Below are positions 954 through 7,811 of a stretch of 64,000 nt of DNA, piece after piece. Source of the stretch: Haloplanus ruber (lineage in GTDB: Archaea; Halobacteriota; Halobacteria; Halobacteriales; Haloferacaceae); the NCBI RefSeq assembly GCF_024494725.1, contig NZ_JANHDK010000001.1, positions 806,001-870,000 of the forward strand. The letters are read 5' to 3'. Position 1 is the first letter of the stretch; each line of letters opens with the position of its first letter. The notes under the pieces were generated by a model. That model saw nothing but the letters and a program-made list of their open reading frames with translations, did not search any database and was not told the DNA's origin. The position numbers and the translations under genes were made by a program.

Positions 954-1883
954 ATGACAGCCACTGATCGTGCGGAAGGCGTCTTGCTCGGACTCGCGTG
1001 CGGCGACGCGCTCGGTCGTCCGGTCGAGTTCCGATCACCACGGCGTATCGAACGGGAGCACGGACGACTCGACGAGATGGTGGGCGACGGTACCCACCGC
1101 AAACCGCCGGGTACCATCACGGACGACACCGAACTGGCGCTCCGGATCGCCCGCAGTCTCGTCGAGCGAGGTACGTTCGACGGCGCCGACATCGCGGAAC
1201 GGTTCGTCGAGTGGTACCGGAGTGACCCGTTCGACATCGGCGGGCTCACTGCCGACGCCCTCCGACTCATCGACCAGGGACACGCGTGGGACGGCGCCGG
1301 ACAAACCTGCTGGGAGGCGCGGCCGGAAGGACAGAACGCGGGCAACGGCAGCGTCATGCGATGTGGGCCGCACGCGCTCGCGTTCGACGGCGACGAATCC
1401 GCGCTCGTGACTGCGAGTGCGGCTTCCTCTCGGATCACCCACGCCGACCCGCGGTGTACGTACGGCTGTGCCGTGCTGAATCTCACTGTCGCGAACTGTC
1501 TGCACGAGCGCGAACGGCCGCTCGCGGCCGCGCTGGAGACCGTTCGTGTGGACGCTCCAGACGAACTCGTCGACGCACTCGAACCGATCGTTGCGGGGGC
1601 AGAGCCCGAGCCACTCTCGAACAGCGGCTACGTCGTCCACACGCTCCAGACGGCGCTTTACGAGGCACTCACAGCCGATCAGGCCGGTGAAGCGATCATC
1701 GGCGCCGTCAATCGGGGTGGTGACACCGACACGCTCGGTGCCGTCGCCGGCGCTGTCGCGGGCGCTCGGTTCGGCGCGTCGTCACTCCCGCCCGCGTGGC
1801 TCGATGTGGTCGACGAGGTCGGTGAACTTCGTGACCTCGCCGGCGACCTGTTCGAGGGAACGTACACGCCAGTACCGTCCTGA
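954..1883 (+). CDS. ADP-ribosylglycohydrolase (DraG/ARH family)
   Basis: The 309-residue protein has the complete set of ADP-ribosylglycohydrolase signatures: GLACGDALG at 13-21, the Mg-binding TDDTE at 56-60, GNGSVMR near 128-134 and the C-terminal GGDTDT at 255-260. The family uses a two-metal (usually Mg2+) site to hydrolyse N- or O-linked ADP-ribose from proteins or small molecules. Length and motif spacing are normal, so it should be active. It stands alone: a 355-bp gap precedes it and a 383-bp gap follows. The natural substrate is unknown; DraG-type nitrogenase control is unlikely because no nitrogenase genes are nearby. Stress-related removal of ADP-ribose, or ADP-ribosyl nucleoside metabolism, is only an inference. 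Confidence 0.92.
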   Translation: MTATDRAEGVLLGLACGDALGRPVEFRSPRRIEREHGRLDEMVGDGTHRKPPGTITDDTELALRIARSLVERGTFDGADIAERFVEWYRSDPFDIGGLTADALRLIDQGHAWDGAGQTCWEARPEGQNAGNGSVMRCGPHALAFDGDESALVTASAASSRITHADPRCTYGCAVLNLTVANCLHERERPLAAALETVRVDAPDELVDALEPIVAGAEPEPLSNSGYVVHTLQTALYEALTADQAGEAIIGAVNRGGDTDTLGAVAGAVAGARFGASSLPPAWLDVVDEVGELRDLAGDLFEGTYTPVPS

Positions 1884-2266
1884 GCGGCGCTCCAGAACGG
1901 TTGTACCGGTACGCGTGTCGTGGATTCCACGCGCGCTCGACAATTTCTTGACGAAGGCAGGGAACGCGACGAGGAACTGCGAGAGGAGTGATCGGGCTAA
2001 TTCGACTACTCGGAATCGAGCCCACTCCAATCGCCCCGTTACGATCTTTGACCGTCACCCGGCGTGACGGGATTCGATCTCGTCGTGTCGATGCGAGCGG
2101 GTTGACCGATCAGCCCTGTGCGATGGGTCCCAGCTAGGGCCGGGATCACCGTTCGACAGCCGGTCCGTGAGATCCCTCATTTGCAATAGCGCAACGGGAC
2201 AGTGTGGCACCCAAAGTCCTCTCAGGCCACAGAAGGACGATCTCGGTTCCAACTCGTGGGGGGCAA
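1884..2266. other. Gene-poor gap, 383 bp
   Basis: No open frame here has a known family, a good start and haloarchaeal codon use together. The segment separates the ADP-ribosylglycohydrolase from the convergent nuclease cassette and is visibly less G/C-biased than its neighbours, which fits an accessory-region junction. I see no insertion-sequence ends or attachment-site repeats. Confidence 0.4.
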
Positions 2267-2977
2267 CTACGGCGAATCAGTCTCCACAATCGCCTCAGAT
2301 ACCCGATCGAGTACGGCGGGATCACAGGCTTCGTCGACGTGATCGACGTTCCACAAGCCGGAGCGACGGATTTTCTCGCTCGAAGTGTCGTGGCCGAGCC
2401 ACCGAGCGTCTCGGGGATCGATCGGGTCCTCGCCGTAGTTGCTCACGAGCGCGATGACGTTCCGTTCGAGGTACGCCCTGTCGCTATCGGGGCTTGGTTC
2501 GTCGTCGACGTTCACCCAGAGAAAGGGAAGGTCGCGGATGTAGTCGCTGACGCGTCGTTCAAGATCGAGTTCCTCAAGACGGAGATCGCGGCCGGCACTG
2601 CTTCCGTGTCCCCACTGAGGATACTCGTCGTGGAGACCGTGACGTTCGACGAGCGCTTCCCCAACGCGTTCCCGGAAGACGGAGCCTCGATGGTTGCCGC
2701 CATCCTCGTACGTCCCACTCAGCGCGCCACGATGGGTTCGGAGGCGGTTCCACAGCGTCGTACCGCTTCCCTCGGAGACGGCGTGCGTGCCGACGCGCGT
2801 GAGGCGTAGCTGATCGCCGTTCGCTCGGTACTCGCCGTTGGCGAAAAAGAAGTAAACGCCTCGATCCGGCCAGTCCATGTAGCCGTCGCAGTCGCGGAGG
2901 CGGCGTTTCCCGCCAACATGTCGTTCGAGATCGTCGAAGAGCGAATACAGCCGATCAAGGCGTGCGTCCCGATCCAT
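2267..2977 (-). CDS. GIY-YIG-like nuclease protein
   Basis: The 236-residue protein opens with a short helical region and then a GIY-YIG-like core: GVYFFF at 40-45 in place of GIY, RVGTH at 61-65 in place of YIG, a helix WNRLRTHRG at 76-84 with the expected Arg, and a conserved-looking GNHRGSVFR at 94-102. The rest has no domain I can name; it ends with a WLGH...SGLWN segment. GIY-YIG enzymes cut DNA through Tyr/Arg/Glu chemistry. The gene starts 9 bp after the PD-(D/E)XK gene on the same strand, so the two are almost certainly one transcript. Restriction or phage defence is an inference from that pairing. The fold call rests on motif reading only. Confidence 0.6.
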   Translation of the reverse strand: MDRDARLDRLYSLFDDLERHVGGKRRLRDCDGYMDWPDRGVYFFFANGEYRANGDQLRLTRVGTHAVSEGSGTTLWNRLRTHRGALSGTYEDGGNHRGSVFRERVGEALVERHGLHDEYPQWGHGSSAGRDLRLEELDLERRVSDYIRDLPFLWVNVDDEPSPDSDRAYLERNVIALVSNYGEDPIDPRDARWLGHDTSSEKIRRSGLWNVDHVDEACDPAVLDRVSEAIVETDSP

Positions 2978-2986
2978 AGGATGCGT

Positions 2987-4042
2987 CTATTCGGCCCACT
3001 GCAAATCAGCTGGGGTGTACGAGTACTGCTTCAGCCCTTGCTCGTCGCAGTGCGAGGCAAGCTTTCCCGGGGATATCCCCAGATCGTCAAGCTGTCCGGT
3101 GTAGACCACGGCCACCGACTCGTTAGAGTCGTCCGCCCGGGCGATGACAATCGCTTCGTCGGGATCCTCGTGGTTCGCATTGACGACGCGATCACCCGCG
3201 GTGAACGGATTCGTCGCGAAATCCAGATTCGTGTGCTTGTACGTGTACAGCTTGACATCCTGGTCGTCACAGTACGAAGAGAGAAGCGCGGGATCGATGT
3301 CTCGCCAGTCACCGGGACCGGTGTCGAGCGTACTGGGGAATGCGACCCGAACGGCTTCACCGTCTATCGACTGACCGTAGACGCCAGCGTCCTTCTCCGG
3401 AGGAAGCACTTCGACGACGACGGCCACCGACGCCTCCGGATCACCGGATTTGACGACGCGATCACCCGGCGAGAAGGGATTCTGCGGTTTCTGGTTCATG
3501 TGGGCGGTGTTCGGACCCAGATCCATCAGCTCGTTCATCGGACGGGTCGCGAGGTGATCCAGTTTCGTGGGTTCGTCTCCGGCGTACACTTCCTGCGTCG
3601 CGACCTTCGATTCGAGTGTCTCGACGCGCTCCCAGCCGAGCAGAATGAGGCCGTCTTCGTTGTCCCGGTGCCACACCATGACGACGATTTCGTCGTCGGG
3701 ATCCTGTGCGAGCAGTTTCGACGGACGGAACGCAGAGACGTCTCGGGAGGTCTTCACGTCAATCTCATATCCGAACACCTCGAAATCGTAGGCGGAGAAA
3801 CTCTCGGGGTTACACTTGCGGATCGCCGCCTCGTTCTCCCACTCCCACATTTCCACCGGGAGGTACTCCCGACAGAACTGCTCGAACGCGAGTTCGCCGA
3901 GATTCCCACGGCGTTTGGTGGGGATGTTGTCGGCGCCCTGTTTCACGGCTTGGTGGTGCGCGCGCTGGCGGTCGACGCCGTCGGGCGTATAGAGGTACAC
4001 CATGTCGATATCCAAAACGCGGCTGATGAATCTATCGGCCAC
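2987..4042 (-). CDS. PD-(D/E)XK-type endonuclease with two C-terminal repeats
   Basis: The 351-residue protein has an N-terminal restriction-endonuclease-like core: Glu50 in GNLGELAFEQF, Asp86 in AYDFEVFG, and the catalytic strand EIDVKTS with Asp95 and Lys97, followed by a hydrophobic strand DEIVVMVW. The C-terminal half is two copies of one module, at about 188-277 and 278-351. Each starts NPF(S/T)xGDRVV and ends with a CD(D/E)Q..K.Y(T/S)Y segment; the modules are possibly SH3-like. The start chosen is GTG at 4042; ATG at 4003 (residue 14) would keep the whole core. It is the first gene of a two-gene unit with the GIY-YIG-like protein. Metal-dependent DNA cleavage is expected from the motif; target and role are unknown. 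Confidence 0.65.
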   Translation of the reverse strand: MADRFISRVLDIDMVYLYTPDGVDRQRAHHQAVKQGADNIPTKRRGNLGELAFEQFCREYLPVEMWEWENEAAIRKCNPESFSAYDFEVFGYEIDVKTSRDVSAFRPSKLLAQDPDDEIVVMVWHRDNEDGLILLGWERVETLESKVATQEVYAGDEPTKLDHLATRPMNELMDLGPNTAHMNQKPQNPFSPGDRVVKSGDPEASVAVVVEVLPPEKDAGVYGQSIDGEAVRVAFPSTLDTGPGDWRDIDPALLSSYCDDQDVKLYTYKHTNLDFATNPFTAGDRVVNANHEDPDEAIVIARADDSNESVAVVYTGQLDDLGISPGKLASHCDEQGLKQYSYTPADLQWAE

Positions 4043-4242
4043 CCCGATCGCGCACGTTCACGAACAGTAAGAGACGGGCTGTGGTCGTTATGACCCCCCG
4101 TGGGGATCTGGAAGATGTAGCGGTCTCTGATCGCTCCCGTTGAGAGTTCGCTGGGGCGCTGTTGGTGATCGGTCTGCTCCGAGACGGTAACGCTGCTGTG
4201 TCCTTCGCTCTCGTCGCTGGTCGATCCGCGCTCCCCGGATAC

Positions 4243-4591
4243 TCAGAAGCTATTCTGGACGGCATCCATCTTGCACTGGACACAGAGGTCGTCGAAGATA
4301 CAACCGACGTTGTCGTAGGGGCAGACGTGGGCTTCGGTTTCGACCGAGAGGCGACGTTTCTGCTGTCGCCATTCGACCTCCCACGCGTCGATAGACATCT
4401 CGGTAGAGGTGAATACGATCTCGCCCTCGCGGTTTTCGATCTTGGCGACCGTTTCCGGCGTGAGTTCCGCTTTGACGACCGCGATGGCTTCCTCGTAGGA
4501 CTGACAGTCGCGCCGCTCTCGGTCTGTGTCGAGCAAGACGACCGTGATCGCACGGTCAGTCGTCTCGGTCGGGTCGTGGCTCGATGTCACC
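4243..4591 (-). CDS. Small cysteine-rich protein, unknown
   Basis: I do not recognise the family. The frame gives about 115 residues from a GTG at 4591, starting with VTSSHDPTETTDR and a beta strand AITVVLLDT. It ends in a cluster with CPYDNVGC and then CVQC, which could bind a metal. A longer version from 4680 would add a hydrophobic N-terminus (about residues 10-25) that could act as a membrane anchor, so the start is uncertain. Codon use is reasonable and the opposite frames look like shadows. It is on the same strand as the nuclease pair but 200 bp upstream of it, so it may belong to that cassette or stand alone. Confidence 0.5.
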
Positions 4592-4742
4592 GTGTGCAGT
4601 CGGGATTCGGAGAACAATAAGATCACTCCCAGCAGGAACACCAACCGACCAGAGGCGACACCGAGATCGAAAAGAGACATCGAGCGCGACGCGGACAGAC
4701 GTCACGGATAGCTATTACAGTGGAGTGGGTCACTTATCGACG

Positions 4743-5234
4743 ATGCACAAGTTCGCCCCCGCGGCCGAGGACGAACGGATCGTCTTCGGCGCCTGTCGTC
4801 CGAACCACCCGCGACGAGCGCCACCCGACAGTTCGGTCGACGACTGGGTGCGAGACATGCAGAACCGAGACGTCGAGCGCGTCTGCTGTCTGCTCGACGA
4901 GTCACAGCTGAGCGAGTACGACAACCTCCTCGACACCTACGTGACGAGCTTCGGCGCGGATCGCGTGGCTCACGCGCCAATCGAGGATTTCAGCGTCGTC
5001 GACCGAGGGACACTCCACGAGACGATTCTGCCGTTTCTCGACGCGTCGAAAGCCGCCTCGGAGCGCGTCGTCGTCCACTGTTCGGCAGGCTCGGGACGAA
5101 CGGGACACGTACTGGCGCTCTGGCTCGCATACGACCGAGGCTGTAGCGTCGAAGATGCGGTCGCGGAAGTGCGCCGAATGGGACGCCGACCGCTCGAGGC
5201 CGCGAGTAGGGCTGACTTGCGCGCGTTACTGTAG
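4743..5234 (+). CDS. Dual-specificity/tyrosine protein phosphatase
   Basis: The 163-residue protein is a compact DSP/PTP. The phosphate loop is [10 protein letters not shown] at 112-121, with catalytic Cys113 and Arg119 in the CX5R pattern. Asp82, in IEDF, is in the right place to be the general acid. The start at the ATG in 4743 gives the normal length for archaeal single-domain enzymes; the frame is open further upstream but without family-like sequence. These enzymes remove phosphate from Tyr, Ser/Thr or sometimes small phosphorylated molecules. No kinase is adjacent. The next gene (DUF309) lies 118 bp downstream and is probably transcribed separately. Confidence 0.88.
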
Positions 5235-5352
5235 CGGACTGTCGTATCGGGCACGGTCACCCCTCTCAACGGTGAAGTTCGGCAGCCCGCCAACAGCGCT
5301 CACGAGGGGATCGGTCGGTGCGATTAGGTGGCTTGGACTACTATCCGCCGCT

Positions 5353-5847
5353 ATGGACGATCACACCCGAGACGACACTGTGGGTCCCCCAATCTCGGGA
5401 AGCCCCACAGGATGGGACGCCAGCCGGGGGCTGTCCAACGGGTGGGAACACGGCACGCTCCGTCGCGCCGTGGTTCACGGTGTGCGCCTCTACAATGCCG
5501 GTGCCTTCCACGAGGCACACGATTGTTTCGAATCAGAGTGGTACAACTACGGGAGCGGGTCGACCGAGAGCGCGTTTCTCCACGGGATGGTACAGGTCGC
5601 TGCGGGCGCGTACAAACACTTCGACTTCGAGAACGACGACGGCATGCGTTCGCTGTTCGAGACGGCGCTCCAGTACCTCCACGGGGTGCCCGAAGATTAC
5701 TACGGCGTCAGCGTCGACGAGGTTCGGACGACACTACAGGCTGCTCTCGACGACCCGGAGACACTCGATGGCTGGCACATCGAACTCGATGGCAACCGTC
5801 CCGTCGCGATGGACCACGACCGTGAGTTCGCCGAACAGTTGGAGTAA
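5353..5847 (+). CDS. DUF309 family protein
   Basis: The 164-residue protein carries the DUF309 hallmark, an alpha-helical domain with FHEAHDCFE at 52-60 and [13 protein letters not shown] at 77-89. The function of the family is unknown; the conserved His/Glu pattern suggests a metal or phosphate site. The chosen start, MDDHTRDD at 5353, is supported by the decayed copy at 6058-5880, whose similarity begins at exactly the same Met. The first 30 residues, rich in Ser, Pro and Gly, are probably disordered. It lies between the phosphatase and its own inverted pseudogene copy. Confidence 0.82.
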
Positions 5848-5879
5848 CTGTTCGGATTCGTTGGGACATCGGAAAGCAA

Positions 5880-6058
5880 TCTCGAAGCGGTCGTGCGATT
5901 CGTGGAACGTGTCGGCGCTGTAACGGCGGACCGTGGGCGGCCGCGCGACGGAGCGTGCCGTGTTCTCACCCGTTAGACGAGGTACGCACCGCACTCCAGC
6001 CGGTTGGATCACTAGACACCGGCGACCCCACGGCGGACTCACGGGTGTGTTCGTCCAT
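5880..6058 (-). pseudogene. Inverted, truncated copy of the DUF309 gene
   Basis: Read on the minus strand this begins MDEHTRESAVGSPVS and continues ...TGW...SSNG, matching the first 30 residues of the DUF309 protein at 5353. The Trp31 codon (TGG) is TGA here, at 5968-5966. After the stop the match continues (EHGTLRRA, then FHESHD-like sequence in a neighbouring frame) up to the FHEAHDCFE motif and is then lost. About 20 bp around the stop are nearly identical to the parent. It is therefore a 5' fragment, about 180 bp long, in opposite orientation. It looks like a duplication or gene-conversion remnant and should not be functional. Confidence 0.75.
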
Positions 6059-6140
6059 CCCGACCTCAGTCGGGCCACCGGCCCACGGTGGTCCCGAGCG
6101 GACGGAAACGCACTTCAACGCCGGGAACTTGGGACGCACA

Positions 6141-7007
6141 ATGAGGATTCGAGAGTTCGGCGACGACCCCCAGGTGGCGGTCGTCGCGGCGGTCCACGGC
6201 GACGAACCCTGCGGCCCCCGTGCGGTCGACGAACTGCTTTCCGACCCGCCGGCGTTCCGGCGGCCGGTGAAGTTCGTCGTCGCCAACGAGCGTGCCCTGG
6301 ACCGTGACGTGCGGTATCTGGACGACGACCTCAACCGGGCGTTCCCCGGCGACACGAACGCACAGAGCCACGAGCGGCGACTGGCCCCCCGACTGCTGGC
6401 CGAGTTGGAGGGCTGTACGACGCTCGCGCTCCACTCCACACAGTCGTATGCCGATCCCTTTGCCCTGGTTGACACTATCGGTCCGGAGACGGCGGCGCTG
6501 TGTTCCCACCTCCCCGTCGACGCAGTCGTCGAGACGGCCGCGTACGCCGGCGGTCGGCTGATCGACTACCCCGGCATCGTCGAGGTGGAGTGTGGTCTCC
6601 AGTGGTCCGAGACCGCTGCGGCGAACGCCCGACGGCTGATCGAGGCCTTCCTCGCGGCGACGGACGTTCTACCGGAGGAGACGGCACCCGCGGCGCCCGA
6701 TCCCGACGTACCGATCTTCCGTCTCACCGGGCAGGTGCCGAAGGCGCCGGCGGACGAACACGAGGTGTTCGTCGAGAACTTCGAGCGTGTCTCCGCCGGC
6801 GTGCCGTTCGCGGCAGCCGACGGCGACGACCGGGTGGCCGAGGAACCCTTCTATCCCATTCTGATGTCGGCCGAGGGGTACGAGGACGTGTTCGGATACG
6901 CGGGCGAGCGGGTTGGCCGCCTCGCTGACGTCGACGACCCAACGGACGGTCACTCCTCGCGGGAGACGAGTTCGACCAGCGTGAGGTCACGGTCGAGCAT
7001 ACAGTAG
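6141..7007 (+). CDS. Succinylglutamate desuccinylase/aspartoacylase-type deacylase
   Basis: The 288-residue protein belongs to the zinc carboxypeptidase-like AstE/AspA family. Zinc ligands appear as H19xxE22 in AVHGDEPCG and H98 in LALHST; the DDDLNRAFPG motif at 61-70 and the VEVECG segment with a candidate catalytic Glu are also present. The family cleaves N-acyl groups from amino acids such as N-acetylaspartate or N-succinylglutamate; the exact substrate is not visible. The start at the ATG in 6141 is set by homology beginning at once with MRIREFG. The last ~58 bp overlap, tail to tail, the UPF0179 gene on the other strand, so the Ser/Arg-rich C-terminal tail is probably unstructured. Confidence 0.85.
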   Translation: MRIREFGDDPQVAVVAAVHGDEPCGPRAVDELLSDPPAFRRPVKFVVANERALDRDVRYLDDDLNRAFPGDTNAQSHERRLAPRLLAELEGCTTLALHSTQSYADPFALVDTIGPETAALCSHLPVDAVVETAAYAGGRLIDYPGIVEVECGLQWSETAAANARRLIEAFLAATDVLPEETAPAAPDPDVPIFRLTGQVPKAPADEHEVFVENFERVSAGVPFAAADGDDRVAEEPFYPILMSAEGYEDVFGYAGERVGRLADVDDPTDGHSSRETSSTSVRSRSSIQ

Positions 7008-7399
7008 TCGTGTGGCGGGTCGCCGACGACTTCGTCGATGCGGTACTCGACGCCGAGTTCGGCGCCGTCAGGAACACAGTAGGTGTGACTCGGACAGTCG
7101 GTGTACGGACACGACCCCGCCAACTCCGTCTTGCTGCCGGCGTACGCACTCTTCGAGGGCACGTTGGCGGGGATGGGCGCCGGTTCGACCTCGACGGCAC
7201 GGACGCCGCCGTCGTGGACGGCACAGTCGAGGGTCTGTGCGTTCTCGCGAACGCCCGTGATCCGGTAGCGAGTGCCCGGCGAGAGGTCGAGACATTGGCC
7301 GCGGTACGGACAGCCCTCGCAGGCGCTCGACTCGCCGCGGAAGACGAACTCGCGTCCGACCTCCGCGAGGCGCGTTCCGATGAGCGTGACCTCTGACAT
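6950..7399 (-). CDS. UPF0179 family protein
   Basis: The 149-residue protein matches the archaeal UPF0179 family in length and cysteine pattern: CEGCPYRGQC (Cys27, 30, 36), Cys59, CPYTDCPSHTYC (Cys97, 102, 108) and a late Cys. The cysteine sets suggest zinc or Fe-S binding. Its biochemical role is unknown. The ATG at 7399 starts the conserved MSEVTLIGTRLAEVG. Its 3' end overlaps the deacylase gene by 58 bp in a convergent arrangement. The conserved haloarchaeal gene upstream at 7811-7425 is on the same strand 25 bp away, so the two are likely cotranscribed. Confidence 0.88.
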   Translation of the reverse strand: MSEVTLIGTRLAEVGREFVFRGESSACEGCPYRGQCLDLSPGTRYRITGVRENAQTLDCAVHDGGVRAVEVEPAPIPANVPSKSAYAGSKTELAGSCPYTDCPSHTYCVPDGAELGVEYRIDEVVGDPPHDYCMLDRDLTLVELVSREE

Positions 7400-7424
7400 G
7401 TACGGAGGTTCACGGCCCTGTCGG

Positions 7425-7811
7425 TTAAGCCTCGCGACCGAGTAGTTCGTCGAGGCGCTCGAAGTACGCCTCGCGGGGCACCTGATAGGCGTCGCGGTAG
7501 TCGACCTCACCGGCGGCGAACGCCCGGGCGAACTCGACCGCCGTCGCGGTGGCCCCGGCCCGGTCGTCGGCGGATTCGACCCGCGCCTCGACCTCGGGTT
7601 CGAGATACAGCGTGACGGTCCAGCCGTCGCTGTTCCCGCGCCTGCCACCGGGTCGACGCCGGGGCGACCCCGGCGAGAGGTAGACCGTCGGAAGGCAGGG
7701 CGCGGGGAAGGCGTCGGTGTCGAACACGTCGGGGCGGTACGCCAGGATCGCCCGCCCCTCGGCTTCCTCGTGCCAGACCGTCCAGCCGTCGGGGAGCGAG
7801 TCGAAGGTCAC
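7425..7811 (-). CDS. Conserved haloarchaeal protein (DUF5820-like)
   Basis: The 128-residue protein starts at GTG with MTFDSLPDGWTVWHEE and has a RAILAYRPDVFDTDAFPAPC core with alternating strands, then an amphipathic helix containing EFARAFAAGEVDYRD. I recognise it as a family that is common in haloarchaea and has no known function. The middle, an Arg/Gly/Pro-rich stretch near residues 47-60, looks like a linker. It precedes the UPF0179 gene by 25 bp on the same strand, which suggests a shared transcript. No signal peptide or membrane segment is present, so it is likely cytoplasmic. Confidence 0.72.
   Translation of the reverse strand: MTFDSLPDGWTVWHEEAEGRAILAYRPDVFDTDAFPAPCLPTVYLSPGSPRRRPGGRRGNSDGWTVTLYLEPEVEARVESADDRAGATATAVEFARAFAAGEVDYRDAYQVPREAYFERLDELLGREA

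Follow-up and report, generated by a model that had tools for sequence, protein, structure and literature searches.

Do two adjacent genes of Haloplanus ruber, which appear to encode nucleases of different folds, form one defence module, and if so, of what kind? The genes lie in a 64-kb stretch of this genome (64,000 nucleotides, hereafter the window). The initial annotation, made from the sequence alone, had paired a PD-(D/E)XK protein with a GIY-YIG-like protein and suggested a restriction or anti-phage module that it did not recognize. We refer to the genes as P1 and P2. Both open reading frames are found where that annotation had placed them, next to each other on the minus strand with a 9-bp gap. 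The features that the argument needs are as follows.

954..1883, plus strand: ADP-ribosylglycohydrolase gene (PF03747, E 2.2e-74), left flank, outside the cassette
2086..4164, no strand: variable cargo segment (hotspot) between conserved flanks, which are colinear in congener G370 around a different interior
2267..2977, minus strand: P1 gene, 236 aa, predicted divergent GIY-YIG-fold nuclease, PADLOC PDC-M57B (PDLC04714 match, model and structural matches)
2987..4003, minus strand: P2 gene, 338 aa, predicted PD-(D/E)XK-type nuclease with two C-terminal repeats, phrog_18072 (phrog match, 17-homologue alignment)
2990..3214, minus strand: P2 C-terminal repeat 2, aa 264-338, absent from short homologues (homologue alignment, profile-profile match)
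3215..3487, minus strand: P2 C-terminal repeat 1, aa 173-263, possibly SH3/KOW/Tudor-like (profile-profile match to repeat 2)
3659..4003, minus strand: P2 nuclease core, aa 1-115, with E37, D73, D82 and K84 (residue invariance)
4026..4033, minus strand: TATA-like element (AGATTCAT) upstream of the P2 start (A/T-rich at the matching position in 20 homologues)
4243..4590, minus strand: small Cys-containing protein gene, right flank, outside the cassette (orthologue in G370, L238:12630-12980)

The pair occupies a cargo hotspot

Positions 785-2085 and 4165-7595 of the window are colinear in the congener G370, where the interior is instead ~6.8 kb of other, nuclease-like cargo: its genes encode one PDDEXK_4-like and one DUF4268-like protein and a third that matches DUF5787 weakly. 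The G370 orthologue of the ADP-ribosylglycohydrolase is 88% identical and stands beside this different cargo. Because they are colinear in G370 around a replaced interior, the ADP-ribosylglycohydrolase and Cys genes are flanks of the hotspot, and we rejected both as members of the system. The G+C content is 0.60-0.62 at 2-5 kb against ~0.68 in most of the remaining window, which bears out the less G/C-biased stretch described earlier. The genes on either side of the pair are metabolic, phosphatase or of unknown function; there is no methyltransferase among these neighbours, as the initial annotation had also observed, and no integrase gene stands beside the pair. By gene content, the pair is thus not a type II restriction-modification system.

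Two further observations concern the surroundings of the hotspot. The adjoining gene at 4743-5234 (plus strand) encodes a DSP/PTPase-type phosphatase (Tc-R-P, E 1.3e-9) that resembles the phosphatase domains of polymorphic-toxin and “Swiss Army Knife” proteins. A DUF309 gene at 5353-5847 (plus strand) is followed by a degenerate inverted partial copy of itself at ~5860-6080 (minus strand), and this partial copy is present in G370 too.

P1 belongs to the PDC-M57B family

The module is not without a recognizable part. A PADLOC profile search matched PDC-M57B (PDLC04714) over aa 1-232 of the 236 residues of P1 (E 2.9e-74). PDC-M57 is a phage-defence candidate of PADLOC-DB in which component A is a DUF6884 (PF21818) protein and component B, covered by profiles PDLC04714/04713, is the P1 family; our literature search found no validation of PDC-M57 and no paper describing it by name. 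Neither P1 nor P2 has a usable match in Pfam or NCBIfam, and sequence-profile matches of both to the PDB stayed at chance level.

The AlphaFold2 model of P1, built from an alignment of 55 homologues, has a pLDDT of 94.9. Plain Foldseek found zero significant matches to it in the PDB and BFVD, and a second-look aligner returned nine solved entries with Z >= 2, all nine of them GIY-YIG nucleases. The best of these, the N-terminal domain of UvrC, has a middling Z of 5.1 over 83 residues at 2.6 A; Eco29kI gave Z 4.2 (106 residues, 3.5 A) and Hpy188I gave Z 2.2. Across the 55 archaeal and bacterial homologues, the motifs GVY, RVG and R78xxxH82 and a late Glu are invariant or nearly so, with G40, Y42, G63, R78 and H82 never varying and E171 varying rarely. 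P1 thus has the fold, the GVY motif, the Arg and the late Glu of GIY-YIG endonucleases such as UvrC, Eco29kI and Hpy188I, and an R-xxx-H spacing like that of Eco29kI. It differs from them in lacking a sequence-level match to solved members, in its extra helices and conserved C-terminal W-L-G ... SGLWN segment and in reading RVG for YIG, with Arg where the motif has Tyr, and for this last reason we call it a divergent GIY-YIG-fold protein and not a canonical member. Motifs and model together strongly support the prediction that this PDC-M57B family member is a nuclease with the GIY-YIG fold, and the GIY-YIG-like core that had been proposed from the letters alone holds up on both.

Within the order, 83 of the 392 genomes have a P1 homologue, and bacteria from several phyla have one as well; the phage records searched had none. 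The Haloplanus ruber genome also contains a relic, a P1 fragment at L105 (C1 near 315 kb).

P2 carries a predicted PD-(D/E)XK active site and a duplicated C-terminal domain

The initial annotation began P2 at GTG 4042. An alignment of 17 homologues moves the start to ATG 4003 or GTG 4000, and the 13 codons ahead of ATG 4003 are not conserved as protein. In the resulting 338-aa frame, the residues first numbered E50, D86, D95 and K97 become E37, D73, D82 and K84. In 20 homologues, the start is preceded at ~30 nt by an A/T-rich, TATA-like element, a putative P2 promoter whose spacing would fit a leaderless haloarchaeal transcript.

P2 is a full-length member of phrog_18072 (E 3.7e-173), a family listed without function. 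The four residues are invariant in the 17 close homologues and again in relatives of 24-35% identity (profile E 8.8e-14 to 2.5e-17), which share the N-terminal domain only; Pfam has no match for P2 or for these distant relatives, and the viral contigs that we searched yielded no P2 relatives. The order and spacing of E ... D ... DxK are those of Mrr-type PD-(D/E)XK nucleases, and P2 differs from that group in having a tandem C-terminal domain of its own. What had been called a PD-(D/E)XK core therefore stands as far as its catalytic residues are concerned; for the fold, the single-sequence AlphaFold model had a pLDDT of 33.9 and was discarded.

The C-terminus consists of two copies of one domain (profile-profile E 2e-28), of which short forms of the protein carry one. 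SH3-barrel families (SPT5 KOW, UBE2O SH3-B and Tudor) scored below threshold against it, so that a reader role for the repeats is a suggestion only. As judged from sequence conservation, there is strong support for a PD-(D/E)XK-type active site joined to a duplicated C-terminal domain in P2. We know of no activity for any member of either the P1 or the P2 family.

P2 is a widespread haloarchaeal accessory gene, with matches in 113 of the 392 genomes of the order, and is also found on plasmids; roughly 80 of its haloarchaeal homologues are near full-length. It adjoins genes for an Mrr-type endonuclease and a D12 adenine methylase in Halorubrum, NucS-type, restriction endonuclease and BrxL genes in Halomontanus, and E2/UBC and ThiF genes in Salinigranum; elsewhere its neighbours include a DUF7387 gene (HicB-like in our reading), PIN-type genes and integrases. 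The defence-type contexts that the initial annotation had anticipated are thus seen for relatives of P2 and, as described below, of P1. In the pleolipovirus Halfgib1, the P2 relative HfxHg1_080 (73% identical over aa 15-276 in the numbering from GTG 4042) is separated by 119 bp from the C5-cytosine methyltransferase gene that precedes it and is followed by a SIR2-TPR gene. It has a single C-terminal repeat and a methyltransferase neighbour; the copy in the window has two repeats and, as its neighbour, P1. We considered a conserved pairing of P2 with methyltransferases and rejected it, since among the loci examined it is confined to Halfgib1-type elements.

Disrupted copies of P2 also occur. 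In one relic in the Haloplanus ruber genome (L104, C1 near 94 kb), a deletion has joined a P2 fragment to what remains of a DUF7387/HicB-like gene, and inserts split P2 near aa 180-196 (again in the numbering from GTG 4042) in two other genomes (L106 in G291, L107 in G220), the G291 insert encoding a transposase-like protein.

DUF6884 and the neighbourhoods of P1

The DUF6884 protein that constitutes PDC-M57A has ~141 aa, and its gene is found directly upstream of P1 in many haloarchaea and on a Deinococcus plasmid. We compared 91 P1 loci from genome and viral contigs. A strong DUF6884 neighbour on the same strand is present in 30, and two encode DUF6884 and P1 as a single fusion protein (Geobacter L197, Planctomycetota L205). 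DUF6884 is adjacent on the opposite strand in two loci, weaker relatives neighbour P1 in 17, a copy lies <=5 kb away in six, and the DUF6884 profile finds none near P1 in 34. DUF6884 is related to YaaA and has CxxxK and LSAxxG motifs, and its member YfjM has been reported among DNA lesion interactors (PMC11701544). In our searches, DUF6884 members also gave weak scores against DpdC of the 7-deazaguanine DNA system.

A QueC gene, scoring above the curated cut-off, precedes both DUF6884-GIY-YIG fusions (Geobacter, L197:4874-8984; Planctomycetota, L205:4909-6777), an arrangement that looks like a single operon. In Geobacter, genes for a ThsA-like SIR2 protein and a nucleoside-deoxyribosyltransferase-like protein come after the fusion. 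Four haloarchaeal loci (L085, L090, L141 and L144) have a GmrSD-type protein closely following P1, with both GmrSD domains confirmed in L085, and three of the four have a DUF6884-like gene upstream on the opposite strand.

In the window, the DUF6884 profile has zero matches over the whole 64 kb, and P2, which is unrelated in sequence, takes the place of A beside P1. The pair is therefore not a complete PDC-M57 system. The sole PF21818 match of the Haloplanus ruber genome is far off at C1:1385745, in another cluster (L239, C1:1380000-1392000). That cluster also encodes a GHKL ATPase, a large HNH-repeat protein and two TGT proteins, one of 414 aa that is TGT/DpdA-like and one of 668 aa that carries an ArcS-type DUF5591 domain. 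It may be a haloarchaeal island for 7-deazaguanine DNA modification or defence.

How the pair came together

A view of the pair as a general two-component system is not supported. We surveyed the 392 genomes of the order by six-frame searches (codon-model gene calls missed low-GC accessory genes) and found both P1 and P2 in 25, against 23.9 expected (p 0.43). Co-occurrence at chance level means that neither gene generally needs the other, and a conserved pairing across the order is rejected, the genes being distributed independently. Homologues that never occur together had been named in advance as evidence against a joint module; order-wide the picture comes close to that, and adjacency is found in three genomes: Haloplanus ruber, the congener G367 and the uncultured archaeon A07HB70, in which a contig end cuts P2 and the C-terminus of P1 appears frameshifted. 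The three P2-linked P1 proteins form one clade (support 100/99).

Homology between the window and G367 is limited to 2300-4039, i.e. to the genes themselves. The pair thus sits at different loci in the two genomes, which argues that P1 and P2 moved together. Both genes have a dN/dS of ~0.10 against G367, so both are real and under purifying selection. G370 shares the P2 locus of G367, at 91% nucleotide identity up to a gap and 93% beyond it. The gap is exactly the 803 bp that hold P1 in G367, and G370 keeps P2 without an adjacent P1. Since many genomes have P2 without an adjacent P1, the simplest account is a single insertion of P1 behind P2, the alternative being a loss in G370.

A proposed cassette of two nucleases and its alternatives

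Our best reading is that P1 and P2 form a recently assembled, restriction-like cassette under purifying selection. More specifically, we consider it an even call whether the two nucleases make up a compact, mobile cassette of defence type in which P2 stands in for the DUF6884 partner of P1. If so, then a P1 from a largely DUF6884-linked family would most simply have entered in a single insertion directly behind a resident P2 gene, and the two would now be expressed as one operon. The P2 repeats would read a feature of the DNA, as the DUF6884 partner of P1 would elsewhere, and both proteins, as metal-dependent nucleases, would then cut incoming viral or plasmid DNA. An anti-virus role is in this sense what we infer. 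Like the type IV restriction systems GmrSD and Mrr, the pair has no methyltransferase beside it; relatives of P1 adjoin GmrSD, QueC and DpdC-like DUF6884 genes and relatives of P2 adjoin Mrr-type nucleases, although neither window protein matches GmrSD or Mrr in Pfam. Because there is no methyltransferase beside the pair and P1 relatives sit with DUF6884, GmrSD and QueC, a type IV-like target that depends on modification or lesions is likelier than a classic type II site, and the cassette may possibly act in a modification-dependent manner. Several findings weigh against this reading: the chance-level co-occurrence across the order, the low-confidence model of P2, the absence of significant plain Foldseek matches and of the YIG tyrosine in P1, the lack of a known activity in either family and the apparent frameshift in the P1 of A07HB70.

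The main rival, somewhat unlikely in our view though a serious contender, is that two independent defence nucleases simply lie side by side in a hotspot and were co-inherited in one small clade with no joint mechanism. Their independent distribution over 392 genomes, an adjacency restricted to three genomes of one clade, the P2 of G370 that stands alone and the hotspot itself are all what this would predict. However, a 9-bp spacing on a shared strand, the joint movement of the two genes to different loci and the selection acting on each of them speak against it.

A bolder extension of the cassette reading, which we judge unlikely, would make PDC-M57 itself a nuclease triggered by modification or lesions, in which DUF6884 reads or flips a base and the GIY-YIG protein cuts, possibly with a link to 7-deazaguanine chemistry as the QueC neighbour and the similarity to DpdC might suggest. 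The window cassette would then be a re-wired version, an undescribed two-nuclease module in which a tandem reader-like PD-(D/E)XK nuclease replaces DUF6884.

The methyltransferase neighbour in Halfgib1 could instead mean that the cassette is the remnant of a type II-like system whose methyltransferase has been lost, P2 being its restriction enzyme and P1 a later passenger. We find this improbable, given that the pairing is limited to Halfgib1-type elements among the loci examined, that more than 100 genomes have P2 in other contexts and that purifying selection speaks against a remnant.

A role in DNA repair, with P1 as a UvrC-like lesion nuclease and the pair serving genome maintenance, would agree with the place of the UvrC domain among the best structural relatives of P1 and with the lesion interactor YfjM in DUF6884 (PMC11701544), yet the patchy presence of P1 (83/392 genomes), its broken copies in several genomes and its plasmid and defence-gene neighbourhoods are not the pattern of housekeeping repair, and we regard this role as quite improbable. 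Least probable, by a small margin, is that the genes serve a mobile element, in integration or in competition with other elements, and not host defence: P2 is carried by a pleolipovirus and by plasmids and does occur near integrases, but many of its copies are surrounded by defence-type genes of the host and show no clear element, and no integrase gene accompanies the copy in the window.

Implications

These results turn an anonymous hypothetical gene pair into a testable defence cassette and give phrog_18072, an orphan family of haloarchaea, a link to a PD-(D/E)XK-type active site. The PDC-M57 candidate gains a predicted GIY-YIG fold, a distribution across domains and natural fusions of its two components, and its QueC and GmrSD context points to modified or damaged DNA as the target. 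The loci of G367 and G370, alike save for P1, offer a natural experiment on cooperation between the two genes.
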